8,036 nt of DNA, taken from the NCBI GenBank assembly GCA_937914895.1, contig CALGIL010000424.1:1-8036 (forward strand). Direction: 5' to 3'. Position numbers and translations under genes: made by a program. Source of the DNA: an uncultured Angelakisella sp. (GTDB lineage: Bacteria > Bacillota > Clostridia > Oscillospirales > Ruminococcaceae). Each line of letters opens with the position of its first letter. Position 1 is the stretch's first letter. The notes under the pieces were generated by a model, which saw nothing but the letters and a program-made list of their open reading frames with translations, searched no databases and was not told where the DNA came from. Below, one piece after another: positions 1 through 8,036 of this stretch.

Positions 1-68
1 TTTGTGTCGCAGTAGCGGAGAGGCTGCAGGGAGTTTTATCTTGCGCAGCTGCCTTTTCGACAGCCCAA

Positions 69-90
69 GGGCCGCCCCGCGGGGCGGCCC
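69..90 (-). terminator. GC-rich perfect palindrome after asnB
   Basis: A perfect 22-nt palindrome with 10-bp arms (GGGCCGCCCC / GGGGCGGCCC) and a 2-nt centre starts 9 nt after the asnB stop codon. Its place fits a transcription end for asnB. The T-run is poor on the minus strand (TTGGGC) and slightly better on the plus strand (TGCTTTTGG), so it may be bidirectional or serve a gene reading in from the left. Bases 1-68 hold no gene I can assign. Confidence 0.55.
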
Positions 91-99
91 TGCTTTTGG

Positions 100-1953
100 T
101 TACAGCTCAATGGCGATGTTATAGTGCTTCAGCCAGTAGTTGATCTGGAGGAGATACGCCAGAAGCTGGGGCCCGGCCATGAGCTGGCCGAAAAACGGCT
201 TTCCGTAATCGGACTGCCCCGCCATCAGGTTTTCCACGGCCCTTTTGTCCACCAGCCTGTGGATTGGCTGGGCGGGGTCCTCCAGCACGCTTTTCAGGCG
301 CTCCTTTACTATGCGCTCGTACCCCGGGTTGTGGGTCTTGGGGTAGGGGCTTTTTTTGCGCATCAGCGCGTCCTGGGGCAGCCAGGACTCCGCGGCGTCG
401 CGCAGCAGGGCTTTGGACACGCCGCCGTGACATTTGTAGTCCCACGGGGTGTTAAACACATACTGCACCAGCCGGTGGTCGGCGTAGGGCACCCGGACCT
501 CCAGGCCGCTGGCCATGCTGGCCCGGTCCTTTCGGTCCAGCAGCATGGTCATAAACCAATAGATGTTGAGGAAGGAAATTTCTCTGCGGCGCTTTTCCCG
601 GGGGTCCTCCCCTTCCAGCTCCGGCACGGCGGCCAGGGATTCCTCATACCGCCGGGCCACATATTCCTCCAGCCGAAGCGCGTCGGCGGCCCCGGGCAGC
701 AGCAGCCCCGTGCGGACGGACAGGTCGGGGGACCAGGGGAAGGTGTGTCCCTCCAGGGCTTCCTTTTGATGGAACCAGGGATACCCGCCGAAGATCTCGT
801 CGGCGCATTCCCCGCTGAGGCCCACCACGTGGTTCTTTTTAATCAGCCTGCAAAAGTGCAGCAGAGAGGAATCCACATCCGCCATGCCGGGCAGGTCCTT
901 GGCCTCCACGGCGTCGTACAGGCAGTCGGCCAGCTCCTGGTTGCCGCACTCCAGGTAATGGTGGTCCGTATGGCAGAAGTGGGAGATTCTGTCCACCCAC
1001 GGCCGGTCGGAATCCGGCTGAAACGCGCTGGGGTGGAAGTACTCGTCGTTGCCCGCAAAGTCGAAGGAATAGGTGGAAAGGACCTCTCCCCCGCGGTTGT
1101 AGCTCCGCGCCGCCAGGGCGGTGATGACGCTGGAATCCAGCCCGCCGGAAAGCAGGGTGCACAGCGGCACATCCGATACCAGCTGGCGGGCCACAATGTC
1201 CTCCATCAGCTCCCGGACATGCTTTACCGTGTCCTCGTAGCTGTCCGGGTGCCGGTAGCTTTCCAGCTTAAAATACGCCTCCTGCCGCAGACCGTCCCGG
1301 TCAAACACGGCGCGGCAGCCGGGCCTTATTTCGTGGACGCCCTTAAAGACGCCCACCCCCGAGGTGCGGGCCGGCCCCAGCCCGAAGACCTCGCACAGGC
1401 CCTCCCGGTCCACGGCGGGGCTGAGGCCGGGGTATTCGAACAGCGCCTTCATCTCCGACGCAAAAACCAGCCGCCCCTGGGTCAGGGCATAAAACAGCGG
1501 CTTTACGCCAAACCGGTCCCGGCACAAAAAGCAGCGGCCCCGGCGCTGGTCGTCCACCGCAAAGGCAAATATCCCGTTGAGCTTTTCCGCACAGCCGGGC
1601 CCGTACTGGATGTAGCTTTTCAGGAGCACCTCCGTGTCGCTTTTGGTTTCAAACCGATGTCCCAGAGCCTTCAGCTCATCGCGCAGCTCCCCGGTGTTGT
1701 AAAGCTCCCCGTTATAGACAAGGGTATAAAGAAAACCGTCCTGGACCGCGCTCATGGGCTGCTTTCCCCCCTCAATATCCACCACGGCAAGCCTGGCGTG
1801 GGCCAGCGCGGCGTGGGCGGACAGATGGACTCCCTTATCGTTGGGCCCGCGGTGCTGCAGGCGGTCCCCCATTTTTTGGGCCAGCGCCTCCCAGCGCGGG
1901 GCCTCCTTGTCTAAGCCGCCGTTATAATCGCAGAATCCGGCAATCCCGCACAC
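100..1953 (-). CDS. asnB: Asparagine synthase (glutamine-hydrolysing), AsnB/AsnO type
   Basis: Class II glutamine amidotransferase, 617 residues, expected in the cytoplasm. It uses glutamine and ATP to amidate a carboxylate, classically aspartate to asparagine. The GTG start at 1951-1953 is chosen because it puts the nucleophile at Cys2 (VCGIAGF), which must become the N-terminus, and GGGAGG lies 7 nt upstream; the frame stays open 87 nt further but those codons are implausible. The glutaminase domain shows QHRGPND (33-39), NGELYN (81-86), SDTEV (105-109) and RDRFGVKPL (145-153). The synthetase domain shows the ATP PP-loop SGGLDSS (269-275) and GLSGECADEIFGGY (378-391). Length matches the Bacillus paralogues (about 615-630) better than E. 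coli AsnB (554). In several Firmicutes AsnB-like enzymes amidate meso-diaminopimelate in peptidoglycan, so the real substrate may be a cell-wall precursor; sequence alone does not decide. It is divergent from the BlaI-like operon. Confidence 0.95.
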   Translation of the reverse strand: MCGIAGFCDYNGGLDKEAPRWEALAQKMGDRLQHRGPNDKGVHLSAHAALAHARLAVVDIEGGKQPMSAVQDGFLYTLVYNGELYNTGELRDELKALGHRFETKSDTEVLLKSYIQYGPGCAEKLNGIFAFAVDDQRRGRCFLCRDRFGVKPLFYALTQGRLVFASEMKALFEYPGLSPAVDREGLCEVFGLGPARTSGVGVFKGVHEIRPGCRAVFDRDGLRQEAYFKLESYRHPDSYEDTVKHVRELMEDIVARQLVSDVPLCTLLSGGLDSSVITALAARSYNRGGEVLSTYSFDFAGNDEYFHPSAFQPDSDRPWVDRISHFCHTDHHYLECGNQELADCLYDAVEAKDLPGMADVDSSLLHFCRLIKKNHVVGLSGECADEIFGGYPWFHQKEALEGHTFPWSPDLSVRTGLLLPGAADALRLEEYVARRYEESLAAVPELEGEDPREKRRREISFLNIYWFMTMLLDRKDRASMASGLEVRVPYADHRLVQYVFNTPWDYKCHGGVSKALLRDAAESWLPQDALMRKKSPYPKTHNPGYERIVKERLKSVLEDPAQPIHRLVDKRAVENLMAGQSDYGKPFFGQLMAGPQLLAYLLQINYWLKHYNIAIEL

Positions 1954-2136
1954 ATACAACCCTCCCGTTCGTTTTGTGAGAAGCCGCGGATTCCACGGGG
2001 GCACGCGGAGGGCAAAGGGGTTCCGGCGCCGTCCGGGCACGGCTTCCGGACAGGCATGGGCCGGCGGCGCACACGGAAGGAATCATGGATTCTCTGGTTT
2101 TATATTACGCTGCAAAAGGAGAGTGGTTCCAGGTCT

Positions 2137-2164
2137 ATTGTATGCTTTCTGATCCTTTTGTACC
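2137..2164 (-). promoter_or_regulatory. Candidate asnB promoter (weak)
   Basis: On the minus strand TACAAT (2137-2142, five of six to the -10 consensus) lies 16 bp from GGTACA (2159-2164, three of six to -35). Transcription from about 2129 would give a leader of about 175 nt before the asnB GTG. That leader includes a GC-rich stretch (about 1984-2080) with short self-complementary parts. No T-box motif was seen in it. The call is tentative; an alternative -10, TAATAT at 2102-2107, has only a poor -35. Confidence 0.3.
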
Positions 2165-2183
2165 GGTTACCCGCAAAAAACAC

Positions 2184-2212
2184 TTGACATTCTTTGTTTA
2201 CAGGTGTAGTCT
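2184..2212 (+). promoter_or_regulatory. Promoter of the BlaI-like/M56 operon
   Basis: A perfect -35 TTGACA (2184-2189) is followed after 17 bp by a poor -10, TAGTCT (2207-2212). Start of transcription would be near 2219, about 36 nt before the repressor ATG. A strong -35 with a weak -10 and two dyads, one over the spacer and -10 and one just downstream of the start, is the arrangement expected of a repressed, inducible promoter. Confidence 0.65.
2197..2210 (+). promoter_or_regulatory. BlaI/MecI-type operator O1
   Basis: TTTACAGGTGTAGT contains the TACA-nn-TGTA dyad (core 2199-2208) typical of characterised BlaI/MecI operators. It sits in the -35/-10 spacer and touches the -10, so binding should block RNA polymerase. 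Assignment to the adjacent repressor is inference from motif and position. Confidence 0.7.
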
Positions 2213-2222
2213 GCTTATTGAA

Positions 2223-2236
2223 ACTACATATGTAGA
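2223..2236 (+). promoter_or_regulatory. BlaI/MecI-type operator O2
   Basis: CTACATATGTAG (2224-2235) is a perfect 12-bp palindrome with a TACA-TA-TGTA core (2225-2234). Its centre is 26 bp from that of O1, and both share the outer half TGTAGT/ACTACA. It lies just after the predicted transcription start, 19 nt before the repressor ATG. The same core occurs, as I recall, in Bacillus licheniformis bla operators. Confidence 0.75.
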
Positions 2237-2254
2237 TTGAATGGGGTGCCAAGT

Positions 2255-2638
2255 ATGTCTGATATTGCAAACCGGGTGTCCGACGCCGAGGCCGAGGTGC
2301 TGAAGGTGCTGTGGGCCAGCCATACGCCTATGACAGAGCGGCAGATTACCGACGCTTTGCGTGACGAGAGCGACTGGAGCCCGACGACAATGAAGACTTT
2401 GCTAAAGCGGCTGTATGATAAAGGCGCGGTGCGGCGGGAAAAACGAGACGTGTTTTATTATACGCCCGCCCTGTCACAGGCCGATTTTGCAAAGGGGCGG
2501 ACGGTGGACCTCCTCAATAAGGTGTTTGGCGGCAATGCCAAAAGCCTTGTGTCCACAATGCTCAGTCAGGATATTTTATCGGAGGGGGACATTGACGAAC
2601 TGAAAAAATACTGGCATGAAAGGGGGAAGAAAGAATGA
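2255..2638 (+). CDS. BlaI/MecI-family transcriptional repressor
   Basis: A 127-residue cytoplasmic DNA-binding protein, the usual length of the family. The N-terminal winged helix covers roughly residues 7-72: SDAEAEVLKVLW (9-20), the helix MTERQITDAL (26-35), a recognition helix around SPTTMKTLLKRLYDKG (42-57), and a wing ending in VFYYTP. The C-terminal helices (74-122, with LLNKVFGGNAKSLVSTML) correspond to the dimerisation part. Start ATG 2255 is chosen because GGGGTG lies 6 nt upstream; an in-frame TTG at 2237 has no such site and overlaps the operator. It presumably represses its own operon through the two TACA-nn-TGTA dyads. The stop overlaps the next start by ATGA, implying translational coupling. 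No Asn-Phe dipeptide is present, the bond cut in S. aureus BlaI, so inactivation may use another site. It could regulate other genes in trans. Confidence 0.92.
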   Translation: MSDIANRVSDAEAEVLKVLWASHTPMTERQITDALRDESDWSPTTMKTLLKRLYDKGAVRREKRDVFYYTPALSQADFAKGRTVDLLNKVFGGNAKSLVSTMLSQDILSEGDIDELKKYWHERGKKE

Positions 2639-5427
2639 ATGCCCTCCTGCTTCTGTTTCTTTCCCTGTCAGTTTCCGGCTCTGTGCTTGTGCTGGTCCTG
2701 CTGCTGTTAAAGCCGCTCCTGAAAAATCGCCTCAGCCATACATGGCAATATTATATCTGGCTGATTGTCATTTTGCGGCTTTTGCTGCCGTTTTCGCCGG
2801 AGACAAGCGGCATAGCGTCAGCGGTTCATTATTTTCAAGCAATTGGCAGCAGCCCGTCGGCAAGCCCCGCCCCGCCGCCCCCGGACAGCGGGGACCGCCA
2901 AGAGCCCGTCACAATCCCGCAGCCTTCCGCAGCAACTGCCCCGGAAACTCCGCGAAGCGATTTGCGGGAACAGAATGCGGCCATACCGTGGCGTGAGCTG
3001 TCCGGTTACGCCTGGGCCCTTTGGCTTACCGCCGCTTTGGTGCTGTTTGTGCATAAGGCGGCCAGCTACCGAAGCTTTGTGCGCTTTGTCAGGGTGGGGG
3101 CAAAGCGGGTAACCGACCCGCGGCTGCTGACGCTTTATGGCGAGGTACTGGCCGAAGCGGGCGTCAGAAGGCGGCTGCCGCTGTTCATCAATGAACAGGT
3201 TTCCTCCCCCATGCTGGTGGGAATGCTTCGCCCCATGGTCATCCTGCCCCCGCTGCAGGCGGGGGACGGCGCCTTTCGCAATATCTTCCGCCACGAGCTG
3301 ACCCATTACCGGCGGCGGGATTTTTTCTACAAATGGCTGGTGCAGATAGCCGTCTGCCTCCACTGGTTCAACCCGCTGGTGTATTTGGCGGCCAGAGAGA
3401 TCAGCCGGGCCTGCGAGCTTTCCTGCGACGAGGCCGTCCTCCGGCGGCTGGACGCGGCGGACCGCCTGACCTATGGGGACGCCCTCATCACCTCCCTGCA
3501 GGCCCAGGGCGGTTACAGCGATTTTGTGGTGTCCATCACCATGAGCGAAAGCGCCCGGCTGGTAAAAGAGCGGCTGGAGGCCATTGTGAACCACAGGGAG
3601 CAGAAAAAATGGATGGCGGCGCTGGCCGCCGTGCTGGCCGTGGGCCTTTTTGCGGGGGGATATGCGCTAGGCGTTTATTCAGTAATGCCGCCGGATGAAA
3701 AAACAAAGGATGCCCTTTTGCAGCAGGAATATAGCTTGTATATATTTACCGCCAGGGAATTGATGGCGCAGGCCCATACTGTTTTTTCATGGTATTTTAG
3801 CGATGCCCCCTTTGAGGAGCTGTGGATTGCCGAGGATGCCCCCACATTGGAACTGGACGGCGCATATTACAGAAAAGTTGTTCGGTTTCAGAGCTTAGAT
3901 GAACTTAGATCTGCAACGGAAGCAGTTTTTACAAGGGCTTTTTGTCAATCCAACTTCTATGACAAGATTGAGATCGGTAAATTCAGGGAAATAGATGGGG
4001 CCCTTTATGTTGGCGACCAGGGCGGCGTTCCGGAGGGTGGAACCACCCCGCCAAAGGAATATATTGTGCTCTCCACATCGAAAGAAAATGTTGCTTTAAC
4101 TGCTATCTGTGAGGGGCCGGATAAAAACAGTGATAATCCCTCAAATGTTCCGCTGGTCGATTATTCTTTTGAACTGCTTCTGCGTAAAGAAGGTCCGCAG
4201 AATCCTGATACATCCCCTGCCGATAGCTGGAGAGTAGCAAGCTATTACAATTATAATGAGGGGGGTTATCAGGGAGATTTGCTGCCTTTTGTAGAGGATG
4301 TGCAGGAGGATGGAATGAGTAAGGATGGCTATGGCTTAACGGTTTATGTCAACGGGGAGTATCTTTCATCCGACGTCCGTTACCTGTGGAACAACGTCAA
4401 CAACATCTACAACGTGGACAATACCGAAACCTTTGAAGTCAGTGATTCCGGCGTTTCTCTGTTTGAGGACGCGCCTGAATTTTTTGAGATTTTTAATTAT
4501 GACGAGGCTGTTGATGCTTATTTTACCGCTGACGGCAAGGCACAGCTGGAACAAACCCTGATTGGAGGGCCCTATACTTTCATCCAAAAGAGAGGGCAAA
4601 AAGTTTACAGGATGGGACCATGGAGAACGGGCTACTCCTATGCGGATGCCTTAGATGGAATGAAGGTAGTTGAGGCTGTCGGCGATACAGTTGTATTGGA
4701 TATAAAATACCGGCAGCCTGAAGGCACAAATGATCCGCCCACCTTTGGTCATGCTGAATTTACCATAAAACGCATGGACGGTAACTGGTATGTAGAGGAT
4801 TATGATTATCCTGAGGCTGTCAATGAAACGCATAATGCAGCACCGGACAGCGAAAGCGCATTGGAATCCAGCGGCTCTGCGAATGTTCCCGCCGGCTTCG
4901 CATGGCAAGCCGTTACCTTTCCTGCCAACGACATTGGGAAAACCCAGTACAGCGGTAAAGTTTTTGACATTGCCCCGTTTACGCTGGAGCTGCTTCTCCC
5001 CGACGGCTGGACTCTTAAGACGCCGGAAGCGGAGGGGGACGCCGCCTGGGGTCTGTTTTCAACCGTTGGCATTTATCAGGGGGAGGTGCGCATCGGCTCC
5101 ATGGGCTGCAATACCTTTCAGCTTTATGAGGACGCGGGGGACAATCCCCGGGCGGTATACAGTCAAATCATGACCGGCTCGGTGGTCAGCTGGGAGGAGG
5201 ACTATACCCCCGTGGTCCAAAGCGAAGCCGCCTGCACCGCCACCTGCCGGATCAGGCGCCAGGTCCCCAAGGACGGCCAGGCCATGGCGGCAGCCAAGAC
5301 GCAGTACAGCCGGGGGATTTTGTCCTACGATAAAAATCTGCTGGTCTATGTGGGAATCCAGCTGGAGGAGGGTGTTATTGCGGACAAAAGCCTGTGGGCA
5401 ATTGCAAAAAGCGTAAAACTCACATAG
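2635..5427 (+). CDS. BlaR1/MecR1-like M56 metalloprotease sensor with IseA-like outer domains
   Basis: A 930-residue membrane protein; BlaR1 has about 600. Seen in order: hydrophobic segments 2-25 and 38-54, a Pro-rich outer loop (73-107), a membrane segment 124-140, a cytoplasmic M56 zinc protease with HELTH (220-224) and ELSCDEAVL (261-269, Glu261 likely third ligand, 37 residues after His224 as in BlaR1), a membrane segment 326-349, then about 580 outer residues. That part lacks an ordered SxxK/SxN/KTG set. Residues about 366-540 and 612-727 each have a helical start, a YFT or VFT-like segment, a GxxxY strand and a closing W-R/Y-V strand, resembling IseA, the DL-endopeptidase inhibitor; this is pattern-based and moderate. 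A third domain (752-930, LPDGW near 788-792) is unrecognised. The expected role is to sense an envelope signal and release the BlaI-like repressor. AGGGGG lies 8 nt before the ATG. The outer core (about 3700-4860) is AT-richer than the rest. Confidence 0.88.
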   Translation: MNALLLLFLSLSVSGSVLVLVLLLLKPLLKNRLSHTWQYYIWLIVILRLLLPFSPETSGIASAVHYFQAIGSSPSASPAPPPPDSGDRQEPVTIPQPSAATAPETPRSDLREQNAAIPWRELSGYAWALWLTAALVLFVHKAASYRSFVRFVRVGAKRVTDPRLLTLYGEVLAEAGVRRRLPLFINEQVSSPMLVGMLRPMVILPPLQAGDGAFRNIFRHELTHYRRRDFFYKWLVQIAVCLHWFNPLVYLAAREISRACELSCDEAVLRRLDAADRLTYGDALITSLQAQGGYSDFVVSITMSESARLVKERLEAIVNHREQKKWMAALAAVLAVGLFAGGYALGVYSVMPPDEKTKDALLQQEYSLYIFTARELMAQAHTVFSWYFSDAPFEELWIAEDAPTLELDGAYYRKVVRFQSLDELRSATEAVFTRAFCQSNFYDKIEIGKFREIDGALYVGDQGGVPEGGTTPPKEYIVLSTSKENVALTAICEGPDKNSDNPSNVPLVDYSFELLLRKEGPQNPDTSPADSWRVASYYNYNEGGYQGDLLPFVEDVQEDGMSKDGYGLTVYVNGEYLSSDVRYLWNNVNNIYNVDNTETFEVSDSGVSLFEDAPEFFEIFNYDEAVDAYFTADGKAQLEQTLIGGPYTFIQKRGQKVYRMGPWRTGYSYADALDGMKVVEAVGDTVVLDIKYRQPEGTNDPPTFGHAEFTIKRMDGNWYVEDYDYPEAVNETHNAAPDSESALESSGSANVPAGFAWQAVTFPANDIGKTQYSGKVFDIAPFTLELLLPDGWTLKTPEAEGDAAWGLFSTVGIYQGEVRIGSMGCNTFQLYEDAGDNPRAVYSQIMTGSVVSWEEDYTPVVQSEAACTATCRIRRQVPKDGQAMAAAKTQYSRGILSYDKNLLVYVGIQLEEGVIADKSLWAIAKSVKLT

Positions 5428-5464
5428 CTGCCATCACTTTTCCCACCGCTTCCCTTTCTGACAA

Positions 5465-5497
5465 GTCATGACCACCCCTAAGAGGGGTGGTCATGAC
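5465..5497. repeat. Perfect 15-bp inverted repeat after the M56 gene
   Basis: GTCATGACCACCCCT and its exact complement flank a 3-nt AAG loop, 37 nt after the stop of the M56 gene. The stem is very stable. No T-run follows on either strand, so it is not a classical intrinsic terminator. It may still act as a 3' end or RNA-stabilising hairpin for the operon, or be a copy of a dispersed palindromic element. Confidence 0.7.
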
Positions 5498-5520
5498 GGG
5501 CAGCCTATAAGGCCTTAAGA

Positions 5521-5549
5521 AAAGCCAGCGCCTAAATGACGCTGGCTTT
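5521..5549 (-). terminator. Rho-independent terminator of the orphan gene, possibly bidirectional
   Basis: AAAGCCAGCG and CGCTGGCTTT form a perfect 10-bp stem with a 9-nt loop. On the minus strand the stem is followed by TTTTCTTAAGG, a good T-run, 71 nt after the stop of the orphan gene ending at 5621. On the plus strand the tail TTTATGGG is weaker, so it may also back up termination of the M56 operon. Confidence 0.7.
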
Positions 5550-5620
5550 ATGGGCCAATGGGACGGTTTTTTCCCGAAGCCTGAACGCAATTTGTAGGGC
5601 CTGGAGAAATTAAGGGGAAA

Positions 5621-6511
5621 TCATACTTGATAAAATAACTCATACTCATGTTTGGTATCATTCCATCTGTCAATTACATCGAGATCGTTTTTGTAGTCAA
5701 GCCGGCCATCCGCAGTGCATTTAATCGCCCTCACCGCAAATTTCCCACAAAATGCAAGTGATGTTTTTTCATGAACCGTAAACACATAAAACTTTCTCCC
5801 GTCCTGCACAATGTCTGTGTCTTCCAATAGAAAGTGGTCCTCAATTTTCAGATTCCTCTGCTCCAGTAAAACTTGCTGCAGCAGCATAAGCGCATGAATA
5901 CGGGGCGTTTGCTGACAAGAATTTACATTCCTATTCAGATGATTGAGCATGCGATTGCATATCGGTTCCATAATGGTAGCTTCCGGGTCACCCAGAAAAG
6001 CAAAATTTACAACAATCAAGCTAAGTTGATTATCAATCGTTTGTATTGCATCCAGCAAACGGGTACGGTAAATAAGTTCGAAAAGTGTTTGCCAAAAAGT
6101 GCCGCAATGGTCTTCTTCAAGGGCGAGAATATCCCAGTATTGCTCATAAAGGCCGGTACGGTTAATGACAGCCTGGATATATTGAGCATAGTTGTAAACC
6201 GGATTAAACTGTGTGATGAAGGTTTTTAAAACGGCTTCCTGTTCAGGCAAAACTGCACCTTGGGCCGAAAGAACCTCCCCCATGGCATAGAGGGGCACCA
6301 ATTTTGTGCTTTCCACAATTTCAGTGGGCAGGCCTATGGGTCCGCTCTCCAAAATAAGCGTGGCCAGAATTTCCTGTAATGCAGTGATTGCATGAATAAG
6401 TTCTTCTCTGCGCTGCCGCAGAAACTCTTGGCGGGTTCGCTCGGCTTTTTGTTCCCTGCGCATTTGTAGGCCAAGCGCAAGTAAAAGGGAGTTAAACCAA
6501 CTGTCACTCAT
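5621..6511 (-). CDS. Hypothetical protein, unrecognised family
   Basis: A 296-residue protein that I do not recognise. The start at ATG 6509-6511 is preferred because AAGGTG lies 6 nt upstream; a GTG three codons earlier is the alternative. The N-terminus has a short hydrophobic patch (WFNSLLLALGL, 5-15), too short for a clear membrane helix, then a strongly basic and charged helix (18-37). The middle (40-225) is mostly helical by pattern. The C-terminus (238-293) looks strand-rich, with GRKFYVFTVHEKTSLAF and several aromatic residues. There is no signal peptide cleavage pattern, nucleotide-binding motif or metal motif. It has its own extended -10 promoter and terminator, so it is a single-gene unit. 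It is clearly AT-richer than the flanking genes (one 60-nt line at 6001 is 32% GC), suggesting separate origin or transfer. The frame is open and well initiated, so it is probably a real gene. Confidence 0.75.
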   Translation of the reverse strand: MSDSWFNSLLLALGLQMRREQKAERTRQEFLRQRREELIHAITALQEILATLILESGPIGLPTEIVESTKLVPLYAMGEVLSAQGAVLPEQEAVLKTFITQFNPVYNYAQYIQAVINRTGLYEQYWDILALEEDHCGTFWQTLFELIYRTRLLDAIQTIDNQLSLIVVNFAFLGDPEATIMEPICNRMLNHLNRNVNSCQQTPRIHALMLLQQVLLEQRNLKIEDHFLLEDTDIVQDGRKFYVFTVHEKTSLAFCGKFAVRAIKCTADGRLDYKNDLDVIDRWNDTKHEYELFYQV

Positions 6512-6542
6512 ATTTGTCACCTTTTCCTTTCAACTGGCTACT

Positions 6543-6551
6543 ATTATAGCA
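6543..6551 (-). promoter_or_regulatory. Extended -10 promoter of the orphan gene
   Basis: On the minus strand TGCTATAAT gives a perfect -10 TATAAT (6543-6548) with the TG of an extended -10 (6550-6551). No good -35 lies at 16-18 bp, which extended -10 promoters tolerate. Transcription would start near 6536, about 25 nt before the ATG, leaving just room for the ribosome site. Confidence 0.65.
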
Positions 6552-6662
6552 GGATTCTCATAACAACACTACTCAAATTCGGTTTTGAGCGCGGCGATAG
6601 AATTTATCCCCTATTGAAGGTCGGTGGGAAACAGCGTGATTCGTGGGTACGGCGTCCCTGCG

Positions 6663-6697
6663 GGCAGAAAAATCAGCCGCCCATAGGCGGCTGATTT
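6663..6697 (-). terminator. Rho-independent terminator of the ABC transporter gene
   Basis: AAATCAGCCGCC and GGCGGCTGATTT (6670-6681 and 6686-6697) form a perfect 12-bp stem with a 4-nt loop. On the minus strand it is followed by TTTTTCTG (counting the stem end), a proper T-run, 54 nt after the ABC stop codon. It separates the ABC gene from the orphan gene. Between it and the orphan promoter (6552-6662) I see nothing assignable. Confidence 0.85.
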
Positions 6698-6751
6698 GCA
6701 TCTTTGAATGTTCTGTTTTCGCTTTGTTTGGCATACCGCGAGTTAGAAGCC

Positions 6752-8036
6752 TCAGGCGTTTTCTCCCAGCGTCCACGCGGTGCTTTTCTGCTGCAGCTGC
6801 ACCATATGGCGGAAGGCTTTGCCGTCTTTCATCAGCTCCTCCGGCGTTCCCTGTTCGGCTACCCGGCCTTCTTCCAGCACCACAATTTTGTCAGCCCCGG
6901 CGACGGTGCGCATCCGGTGGGCGATGATGAGAACCGTTTTGCCCTGCAGCAGGCGCGAAAGCGCCCTTTGCACCGCGCTCTCATTTTCCACATCCAGACT
7001 GGCGGTGGCTTCATCCAGCAGGACGATGGGCGCGTTTTTCAGCAGTGCGCGGGCAATGGAGATACGCTGGCGCTCTCCGCCGGAAAGCGTCGCGCCGTTT
7101 TCGCCGATCATCGTTTCGTATTTTTCGGGGAGCCCCTGGACAAATTCGTCGCAGTGGGCGGCCTTGGCGGCGGCCAGTACCTCTTCGTCGCTTGCGTCCC
7201 GGCGCCCAAGGCGGATATTTTCCATAATGGTATCGCGGAAAAGCACCACGTCCTGAAAAACGATGGCGTAATATTTCAGCAGCGTTTCGGGATCAACCGA
7301 GGATACGTCCACGCCGCCCAGGGTGATGGTTCCGGCTCCCACGTCCCAAAAGCGGGCGGCCAGCTTGGCGGCGGTGGATTTACCCCCGCCGGAGGGCCCC
7401 ACCAGCGCCGTAATTTCGCCCTGCTTTGCCGCAAAGGACACATCCTTCAAAACGCCCTCGTCGTCGCCCTGGTAAGAAAAATCCACATGGTCGAAAATGA
7501 TGTCGAACCCATCCGGCATAAAATGCTCCGTCCCGGTTTGGATGGGCTCCTCCTGAATGGCGCGCATGCGGTCAATATAGAGCTTGGCGTTAAAGGTGGC
7601 GGCAATATTTTGCAGCGTCTGCGAAATTGGGTCGTAAATGCGCGCGGCGGCAAAAAGGAAGCCGAGGAAAAACAGAAAATCAAACCTTCCCGCCGTGACC
7701 TGGGCAATGCCCACCAGCACCGTGGTGGCAAGGCCCACCTTTAAAAAGGCCTGTGCGCTGCTGATGAAGGAGCCGCCCACCAGTTCGGCCTGGATGCAGC
7801 CCCGTTCGGCAATCTCCGTTTTTTCGTTCAGCTCCGCAAGGTAGCTTTCCTCCAAATTGTCGGCCTTAATGTTCCGGATGGTTTCAAGCCCCTCCTGGAT
7901 ATGGTCGGTCACAGCGCGCTTTTTCAGGATGCTTCTGCCGCCGTATTGGTCCTGCAGCTTTTTCGTACCCACGGTCAACACCAAAGCGACGGGGACGACC
8001 CAAAGGATGGCAAGGGCCATGCGCCAGTTCATCACA
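6752..8036 (-). CDS. ABC transporter, fused permease/ATPase (5' end outside window)
   Basis: The visible 427 residues are the C-terminal part of an exporter-fold (type IV) ABC half-transporter; such proteins run about 580-600 residues, so roughly 150-170 are missing. The GTG/ATG codons at the edge are internal. Visible are late membrane segments (about 7-22, 96-111, 117-131), then the ATPase: A-loop Tyr188, Walker A GPSGGGKST (213-221), Q-loop Gln261, signature LSGGERQ (317-323), Walker B IVLLDEA (337-343), D-loop SLD (346-348) and H-loop His373. All catalytic residues are intact, including Glu342. It would act as a dimer in the cytoplasmic membrane; many relatives are encoded next to a partner half. 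The phrasing around VFQDVVLF and CDEF recalls the IrtB/YbtP-like siderophore-linked branch, but this is a weak guess and drug or lipid export remains possible. GC is high (67% in the 60 nt from 7141), unlike the neighbouring orphan gene. Confidence 0.93.
   Translation of the reverse strand, partial: VMNWRMALAILWVVPVALVLTVGTKKLQDQYGGRSILKKRAVTDHIQEGLETIRNIKADNLEESYLAELNEKTEIAERGCIQAELVGGSFISSAQAFLKVGLATTVLVGIAQVTAGRFDFLFFLGFLFAAARIYDPISQTLQNIAATFNAKLYIDRMRAIQEEPIQTGTEHFMPDGFDIIFDHVDFSYQGDDEGVLKDVSFAAKQGEITALVGPSGGGKSTAAKLAARFWDVGAGTITLGGVDVSSVDPETLLKYYAIVFQDVVLFRDTIMENIRLGRRDASDEEVLAAAKAAHCDEFVQGLPEKYETMIGENGATLSGGERQRISIARALLKNAPIVLLDEATASLDVENESAVQRALSRLLQGKTVLIIAHRMRTVAGADKIVVLEEGRVAEQGTPEELMKDGKAFRHMVQLQQKSTAWTLGENA

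Follow-up and report, generated by a model that had tools for sequence, protein, structure and literature searches.

Membrane receptors of the BlaR1 type are known for their role in beta-lactam sensing. For BlaR1, PMC7593790 describes a pathway that runs from the ligand to the protease and from the protease to the repressor, and PMC5473688 presents the mycobacterial BlaR (Rv1845c) as a BlaR1 homologue that regulates BlaI without having a beta-lactam sensor domain. The subject of the present analysis is a receptor of this kind encoded in DNA of an uncultured Angelakisella sp. (GenBank assembly GCA_937914895.1, contig CALGIL010000424.1, positions 1 to 8,036 of the forward strand; this whole stretch of 8,036 nucleotides is referred to as the window). 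Its open reading frame (ORF; 2635-5427, + strand, ATG start, 930 amino acids) is the second of two overlapping plus-strand genes within 2255-5427, the first of which codes for a BlaI-type repressor. The protein is a member of an M56/BlaI pair, but not a beta-lactam sensor of the BlaR1/MecR1 class. The extracellular sensor domain that is absent from mycobacterial BlaR (likewise according to PMC5473688) has its place taken here by 580 residues of other modules, the first of which is well supported, by structure modelling and profile comparison, as a divergent IseA domain. IseA itself is a known inhibitor of peptidoglycan DL-endopeptidases. The features on which the argument rests are the following.

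2255-2638, + strand: BlaI/MecI-type repressor gene (PF03965, E 5.9e-28)
2635-3681, + strand: M56 membrane protease part, residues 1-349 (PF05569, alignment to BlaR1 8exp, hydropathy)
3724-4320, + strand: module A, residues 364-562, predicted divergent IseA domain (BLAST borders, model, fold search, profiles)
4012-4062, + strand: loop window of module A, residues 460-476, GDQGGVPEGGTTPPKEY (invariance count, alignments)
4324-4818, + strand: module B, residues 564-728, IseA/NTF2-like (BLAST borders, profiles, fold search)
4846-5424, + strand: module C, residues 738-930, PsbP/Mog1-like (BLAST borders, fold search, genome searches)

A BlaR1-Like Protease without a Recognizable Penicillin-Binding Domain

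The initial annotation of the window had recognized the membrane and HELTH protease layout of BlaR1/MecR1, which is borne out by family searches. PF05569 (Peptidase_M56) covers residues 8-317 with an E-value of 3.5e-59 and 200.8 bits, against a curated cut-off of 31, the HExxH motif is intact (HELTH, residues 220-224) and the downstream E/D is kept, all of which places the protein in the M56/BlaR1 superfamily. Residues H220, E221, H224, D229, W244, P247, E261, C264, D265 and Y280 are retained at positions invariant in an alignment of 30 M56 proteins, and residues 7-320 can be aligned with the solved BlaR1 structure (8exp, E 4.2e-9). The NCBIfam models for BlaR1/MecR1 match inside residues 9-332 only, with scores below their cut-offs (134.8 of 400 bits for NF000326), and a related-locus search of the genome contigs yielded a single M56 relative, whose similarity is confined to residues 26-357. 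Two segments exceeded the threshold of a hydropathy scan, residues 1-31 and 326-351, the latter corresponding approximately to the last membrane helix; the remaining membrane segments of the protease are presumed on the strength of the alignment of M56 proteins. The overlapping BlaI-like partner gene, also proposed initially, was confirmed by a PF03965 score of 98 bits (cut-off 22.6) and by a 4-nt overlap, its ORF ending at 2638 and the M56 ATG lying at 2635. Its scores with the NCBIfam BlaI/CopY models are below the cut-offs of these models, and translation more probably begins at ATG 2255 than at the TTG listed at 2237.

The ectodomain is composed of three modules (A, 364-562; B, 564-728; C, 738-930) whose borders were derived from BLAST comparisons among related proteins. 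The absence of the SxxK, SxN and KTG set after the last membrane segment, noted from the beginning, holds: no [KH][TS]G motif occurs anywhere in the 930 residues, and the SxxK strings at 480 and 897 and the [SY]xN strings at 499, 537, 571 and 748 do not make up the full set. M56 was the sole family found in a Pfam scan of the whole protein at E<=1, an NCBIfam search with the ectodomain alone gave no match, and neither did an ectodomain search of plasmids and phages. The class D-like domain with its three motifs that defines the BlaR1/MecR1 beta-lactam sensors is thus not recognizable. The predicted structures agree with this, since a class D beta-lactamase-like fold, the outcome that would have spoken against the initial proposal, leads neither of the two fold-match lists. 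PBP2a rows appear far below (E 0.08-0.73) and presumably represent the NTF2-like N-terminal part of that protein.

A missing penicillin-binding domain is the usual situation among the M56 proteins sampled. None of the 30 others (29 from relatives plus a paralogue from the same genome) gave a match to a transpeptidase family at E<=0.01, with several of these proteins truncated where the 1,500-base flank ended, so that some ectodomain ends lay outside view. M56 proteins are common, one relative having as many as 10 matches, and this count of none in 30 contrasts with the beta-lactam role for which such receptors are known. Two of the 30 (L050 and L053) match M23, with an M23-like domain in the ectodomain; the one in L053 showed none of the M23 zinc motifs when scanned with simple patterns and may be non-catalytic, and L050 ends at the locus edge.

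The IseA-Like Modules and the Third Domain

Two structure models were made because an alignment of the whole ectodomain that included fragments had placed rows of modules B and C on module A. In the fold search with module A, three IseA chains were the only PDB matches at E<=0.001, with IseA at the top, clear of other folds, and NTF2-like chains in the rows below; two of the matched IseA chains come from complexes with LytE and CwlO. Profile-profile comparison of module A with IseA-family proteins gave an E-value of 5.6e-13 over 142 columns, the same comparison with module C, taken as a control, giving 0.085. This comparison and the structure model were based on profile A5, built without the near relative L005; an earlier profile (A1), which already held L005, had also returned PF16800-labelled proteins, a result that is partly circular. 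Module A reaches 12.4 bits with the Pfam IseA family PF16800, below the cut-off of 29.9, and was rejected as a Pfam IseA member; searches of the PDB with the sequence profiles of A and B returned no IseA. The proposal that the first ectodomain segment resembles IseA is thereby upheld at the level of fold and profile, a lack of any structural match having been the result to fear.

Conservation within module A is highest at a loop. Across residues 364-509, 44 of 146 positions are invariant among the nine M56 proteins with module A, and residues 460-476, with 11 of 17 invariant, form the best 17-residue window of the module, tied with overlapping windows. In the alignments this stretch follows the shared DGxLY strand and falls at the position of IseA's GDGD loop. 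Part of it lies in a region that the model predicts with low confidence (block mean 59).

That a second segment shares the pattern of the first was likewise substantiated, modules A and B being related by profile-profile comparison (E 1.3e-5 over 100 columns; 8e-7 when the alignment used held an IseA-family member), with control values of 0.21 and 0.30 for module C. The two segments are real, but the borders first given to the second (612-727) omit its start, 364-562 and 564-728 being better limits. Its likeness to IseA survives in part: the profile comparison of module B with IseA-family proteins supports it (E 1e-5 over 107 columns), but in the fold search NTF2-like hubs are as close as IseA, so that module B is better described as distantly IseA/NTF2-like, on weaker sequence grounds than module A. 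At the place corresponding to the module A loop, module B has a conserved loop motif of its own, PWRTGYSY (residues 662-669). The top PDB profile row for module B, a PaxA peptide synthetase chain (E 0.0011), was discarded, as no fold row supports it. The extra domain anticipated beyond these two segments is module C, whose fold is tentatively PsbP/Mog1-like and which, searched alone against Pfam at E<=10, gave no match.

Shuffling of Ectodomain Modules

Module orders were read with profiles for five modules (A, B and C plus the additional D and E), all constructed from the proteins to which they were then applied, and the underlying protein searches supplied limited sets, namely 11 out of the 7,995 candidates scored in one, 3 out of 4,092 in another and 9 out of 2,784 in a third. 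After the protease, the window protein has the order A-B-C, P0002 has D-A-C, and P0003, P0004, P0005 and P0010 have D-A; P0007 has D-A plus unassigned sequence, P0006 has D, two D-like stretches and A, and P0009 has A. The order is B-E in P0008 and E-C-B in P0011 and P0012. The protease parts of P0008, P0002 and P0003 are 58-61% identical to that of the window protein and their ectodomains are different. Judged from sequence, the ectodomain modules are, among the proteins found, shuffled on a conserved protease chassis. Modules D (P0002-P0007, P0010) and E (P0008, P0011, P0012) are thus further recurrent M56 ectodomain modules; besides M56, the precomputed Pfam labels of the proteins bearing them are limited to PF19546, on P0006.

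In searches of 100 genomes each, own genome included, module A was found in 3 genomes, B in 4 and C in 21. The modules also occur in standalone lipoprotein-like carriers (A in L004/P0013, the latter from Oscillospiraceae bacterium MB08-C2-2, and in P0016; B in L008, L009 and L010; C in L012, L021 and L024). Among the 30 other M56 proteins, C is present in 5, B clearly in one (L065) with a partial weak match in L063, and an A-like stretch in one, the own-genome paralogue. This paralogue belongs to the second M56/BlaI pair of the genome (locus L082 on contig C130, M56 gene 1026-3299, - strand), its IseA-like stretch lying near the end of the protein (E 2e-4). In one relative, two adjacent genes (L091, 7008-7880 and 7884-8405) match the IseA profile.

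What the Receptor May Read

A wall-hydrolase-inhibitor fold in the ectodomain offers a concrete and testable guess at what the receptor reads. In the reading that we favour, and consider evenly poised between right and wrong, a cell-wall-modifying enzyme would dock on the ectodomain through the IseA-like module A, docking would switch on the inner M56 protease, the activated protease would cut the BlaI-type repressor, and this cleavage would derepress mainly the receptor's own operon. The loop at 460-476 would make contact with the enzyme, module B could serve as a second docking surface, and module C as a spacer or a second ligand site. The ligand-activated protease and its repressor substrate are drawn by analogy from the BlaR1/MecR1 pathway, and the enzyme ligand with its loop contact from the IseA family. 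Candidate ligands in the own genome would include M23 peptidases (7 matches, 6 above cut-off), polysaccharide deacetylases (2 matches) and S11 DD-carboxypeptidases, NlpC/P60 enzymes not being favoured. The paralogous receptor at L082 is divergent from a D-Ala-D-Ala carboxypeptidase (S11) gene (3769-5088, + strand), which might share a control region with the paralogous pair, and a standalone module B protein with a lipobox-like start (L010, 1279-1944, own contig C291) adjoins another such gene. An S11 neighbour was seen at 3 of 16 loci, these being both own-genome loci and 1 of the 14 others, which were fetched with wide flanks; S11 carboxypeptidases were dismissed as a general partner, with none near the other loci scanned (flanks mostly of 1,500 bases).

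The initial annotation had pointed to DL-endopeptidases as the thing being read, and sensing of NlpC/P60 enzymes of the same cell has in its favour that the closest folds are IseA chains, two of them from the LytE and CwlO complexes, and that NlpC/P60 matches exist in 26 of the 41 genomes covered by the search, the own one among these 41, and in 5 of 9 of the same genus. Against it, the own assembly (92.7% complete) gave no NlpC/P60 match at E<=1e-3, and 3 of the 6 PF16800-bearing relatives searched for both families have none, so that IseA-like proteins do not track NlpC/P60 in this sample. This ligand is thus not supported by the genome and we regard it as unlikely, but the more general part of the proposal, sensing of the wall or envelope rather than of a beta-lactam, is still the best available inference. 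According to PMC12700454, members of the IseA family also act on wall enzymes outside NlpC/P60, so that some wall enzyme is still a plausible ligand, though not NlpC/P60 in particular. The same source names Tai3, which belongs to the IseA family, as conferring immunity to an endopeptidase effector of a type VI system, which, together with the module shuffling, would fit an ectodomain that recognizes varied foreign wall-attacking enzymes of competitors or phages instead of self enzymes; a general Pfam scan of the five window proteins, with no dedicated defence-library search, showed no defence family, and this option appears less likely still.

Possible, if well behind the docking of a wall enzyme, is a small ligand (a wall fragment, peptide, lipid or other metabolite) held in NTF2-like pockets of modules A and B and/or in module C, the likeness to IseA then reflecting shared fold ancestry. 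NTF2-like folds commonly hold pockets. The NTF2-like rows beneath IseA for module A, the equal nearness of module B to both, and the wide occurrence of module C, which was found in more genomes than A or B and for which no link to wall enzymes was seen, are in line with such a ligand. Retention of beta-lactam sensing in the BlaR1/MecR1 manner is hardly credible: kinship of the protease part with BlaR1 and a BlaI-like partner speak for it, but the ectodomain has neither a KTG-type motif nor a transpeptidase or beta-lactamase family, its leading fold matches are IseA, NTF2-like and PsbP/Mog1-like, and such a sensor was rejected on motif, family and fold evidence. Beta-lactams might nevertheless be felt indirectly, by way of wall damage, even without penicillin binding. 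Returning to the docking of a wall enzyme on module A, a doubtful extension is that the receptor would be sensor and membrane-tethered inhibitor in one, docking leading to BlaI cleavage, to derepression of the receptor's operon alone and hence to more inhibitor, with the pool of modules A-E as an enzyme-specific receptor repertoire. It predicts a two-gene operon, an operator pair unique in the genome and a conserved loop, all of which are seen, and, if true, would amount to a self-contained homeostat for wall lysis.

Operon Control and Neighbouring Genes

Upstream of the repressor gene lie two dyads of the TACANNTGTA type, which we take to be the bla/mec operator motif, together with a candidate promoter composed of TTGACA (2184-2189), a 17-nt spacer and TAGTCT (2207-2212). 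A promoter scan listed nothing at its threshold. A further inverted repeat follows the M56 gene.

2199-2208, no strand assigned: operator-like dyad 1, TACAGGTGTA, within the spacer of the candidate promoter and reaching its second element (motif count, sequence)
2225-2234, no strand assigned: operator-like dyad 2, TACATATGTA (motif count, sequence)
5521-5549, no strand assigned: inverted repeat AAAGCCAGCG-9 nt-CGCTGGCTTT (read from sequence)

The motif TACANNTGTA was seen three times in the window against 0.02 expected, and a pair of them 8-38 nt apart occurs once in the whole genome, which suggests that the operon may control mainly itself. Four copies exist genome-wide, two at the repressor promoter, one in the M56 gene and one in a lipoprotein-like ORF; no outside target is proposed because these last two are the remaining sites, and a wider regulon was rejected, the exact-match sites outside the promoter lying inside ORFs. 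A precedent for a BlaI regulon of a single operon is BlaI_1845 of Clostridium thermocellum, in an operon with two further genes (PMC8457756). The copy within the M56 gene (4686-4695) is either a chance occurrence or an auxiliary site. With 4 sites against 22 for a backward-read control, which may differ in dinucleotide make-up, the motif is rare in this genome and possibly avoided. A BlaI-like ORF is present at 29 of the 30 other M56 loci, but TACANNTGTA lies close to it at just 2 of them, so this operator is not a general feature. The dyad of the own paralogue (L082) has another spacing, TACACTTGTGTA, and the two repressors may accordingly be insulated from each other.

The inverted repeat at 5521-5549 is, from its sequence, a likely terminator closing the two-gene operon; a terminator scan, covering loops of 3-8 only, listed nothing there. 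The flanking genes are on the opposite strand and comprise an asparagine synthase gene, a 299-aa gene and an ABC transporter gene, the 299-aa ORF (5621-6520, - strand) having no Pfam match above cut-off.

Comparison with Known Systems

A literature search, with subscription papers mostly outside it, returned nothing that treats an IseA domain as part of a BlaR1-type receptor, which is not proof of novelty; both words, IseA and BlaR1, occur in one paper, PMC13204101. With BlaR1/BlaI and MecR1/MecI of Staphylococcus and Bacillus, the locus shares the HExxH M56 protease, the adjacent BlaI-family repressor and the promoter dyads of TACANNTGTA type. It differs from them in that the class D beta-lactamase-like sensor is replaced by three other modules, and in having no beta-lactamase gene beside the pair in the window. 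PsbP/CyanoP and Mog1, the tentative fold relatives of module C, differ from it in setting. IseA (YoeB, PF16800) of Bacillus subtilis and module A agree in predicted fold and in the position of a loop; module A differs in being part of a membrane receptor, in scoring below the Pfam cut-off and in its longer loop (GDQGG..TPPK instead of GDGD). IpdA of B. anthracis and Tai3 of Ralstonia pickettii are, according to PMC12700454, IseA-type folds directed against wall enzymes other than NlpC/P60, but they are separate proteins, whereas module A forms part of a receptor ectodomain.
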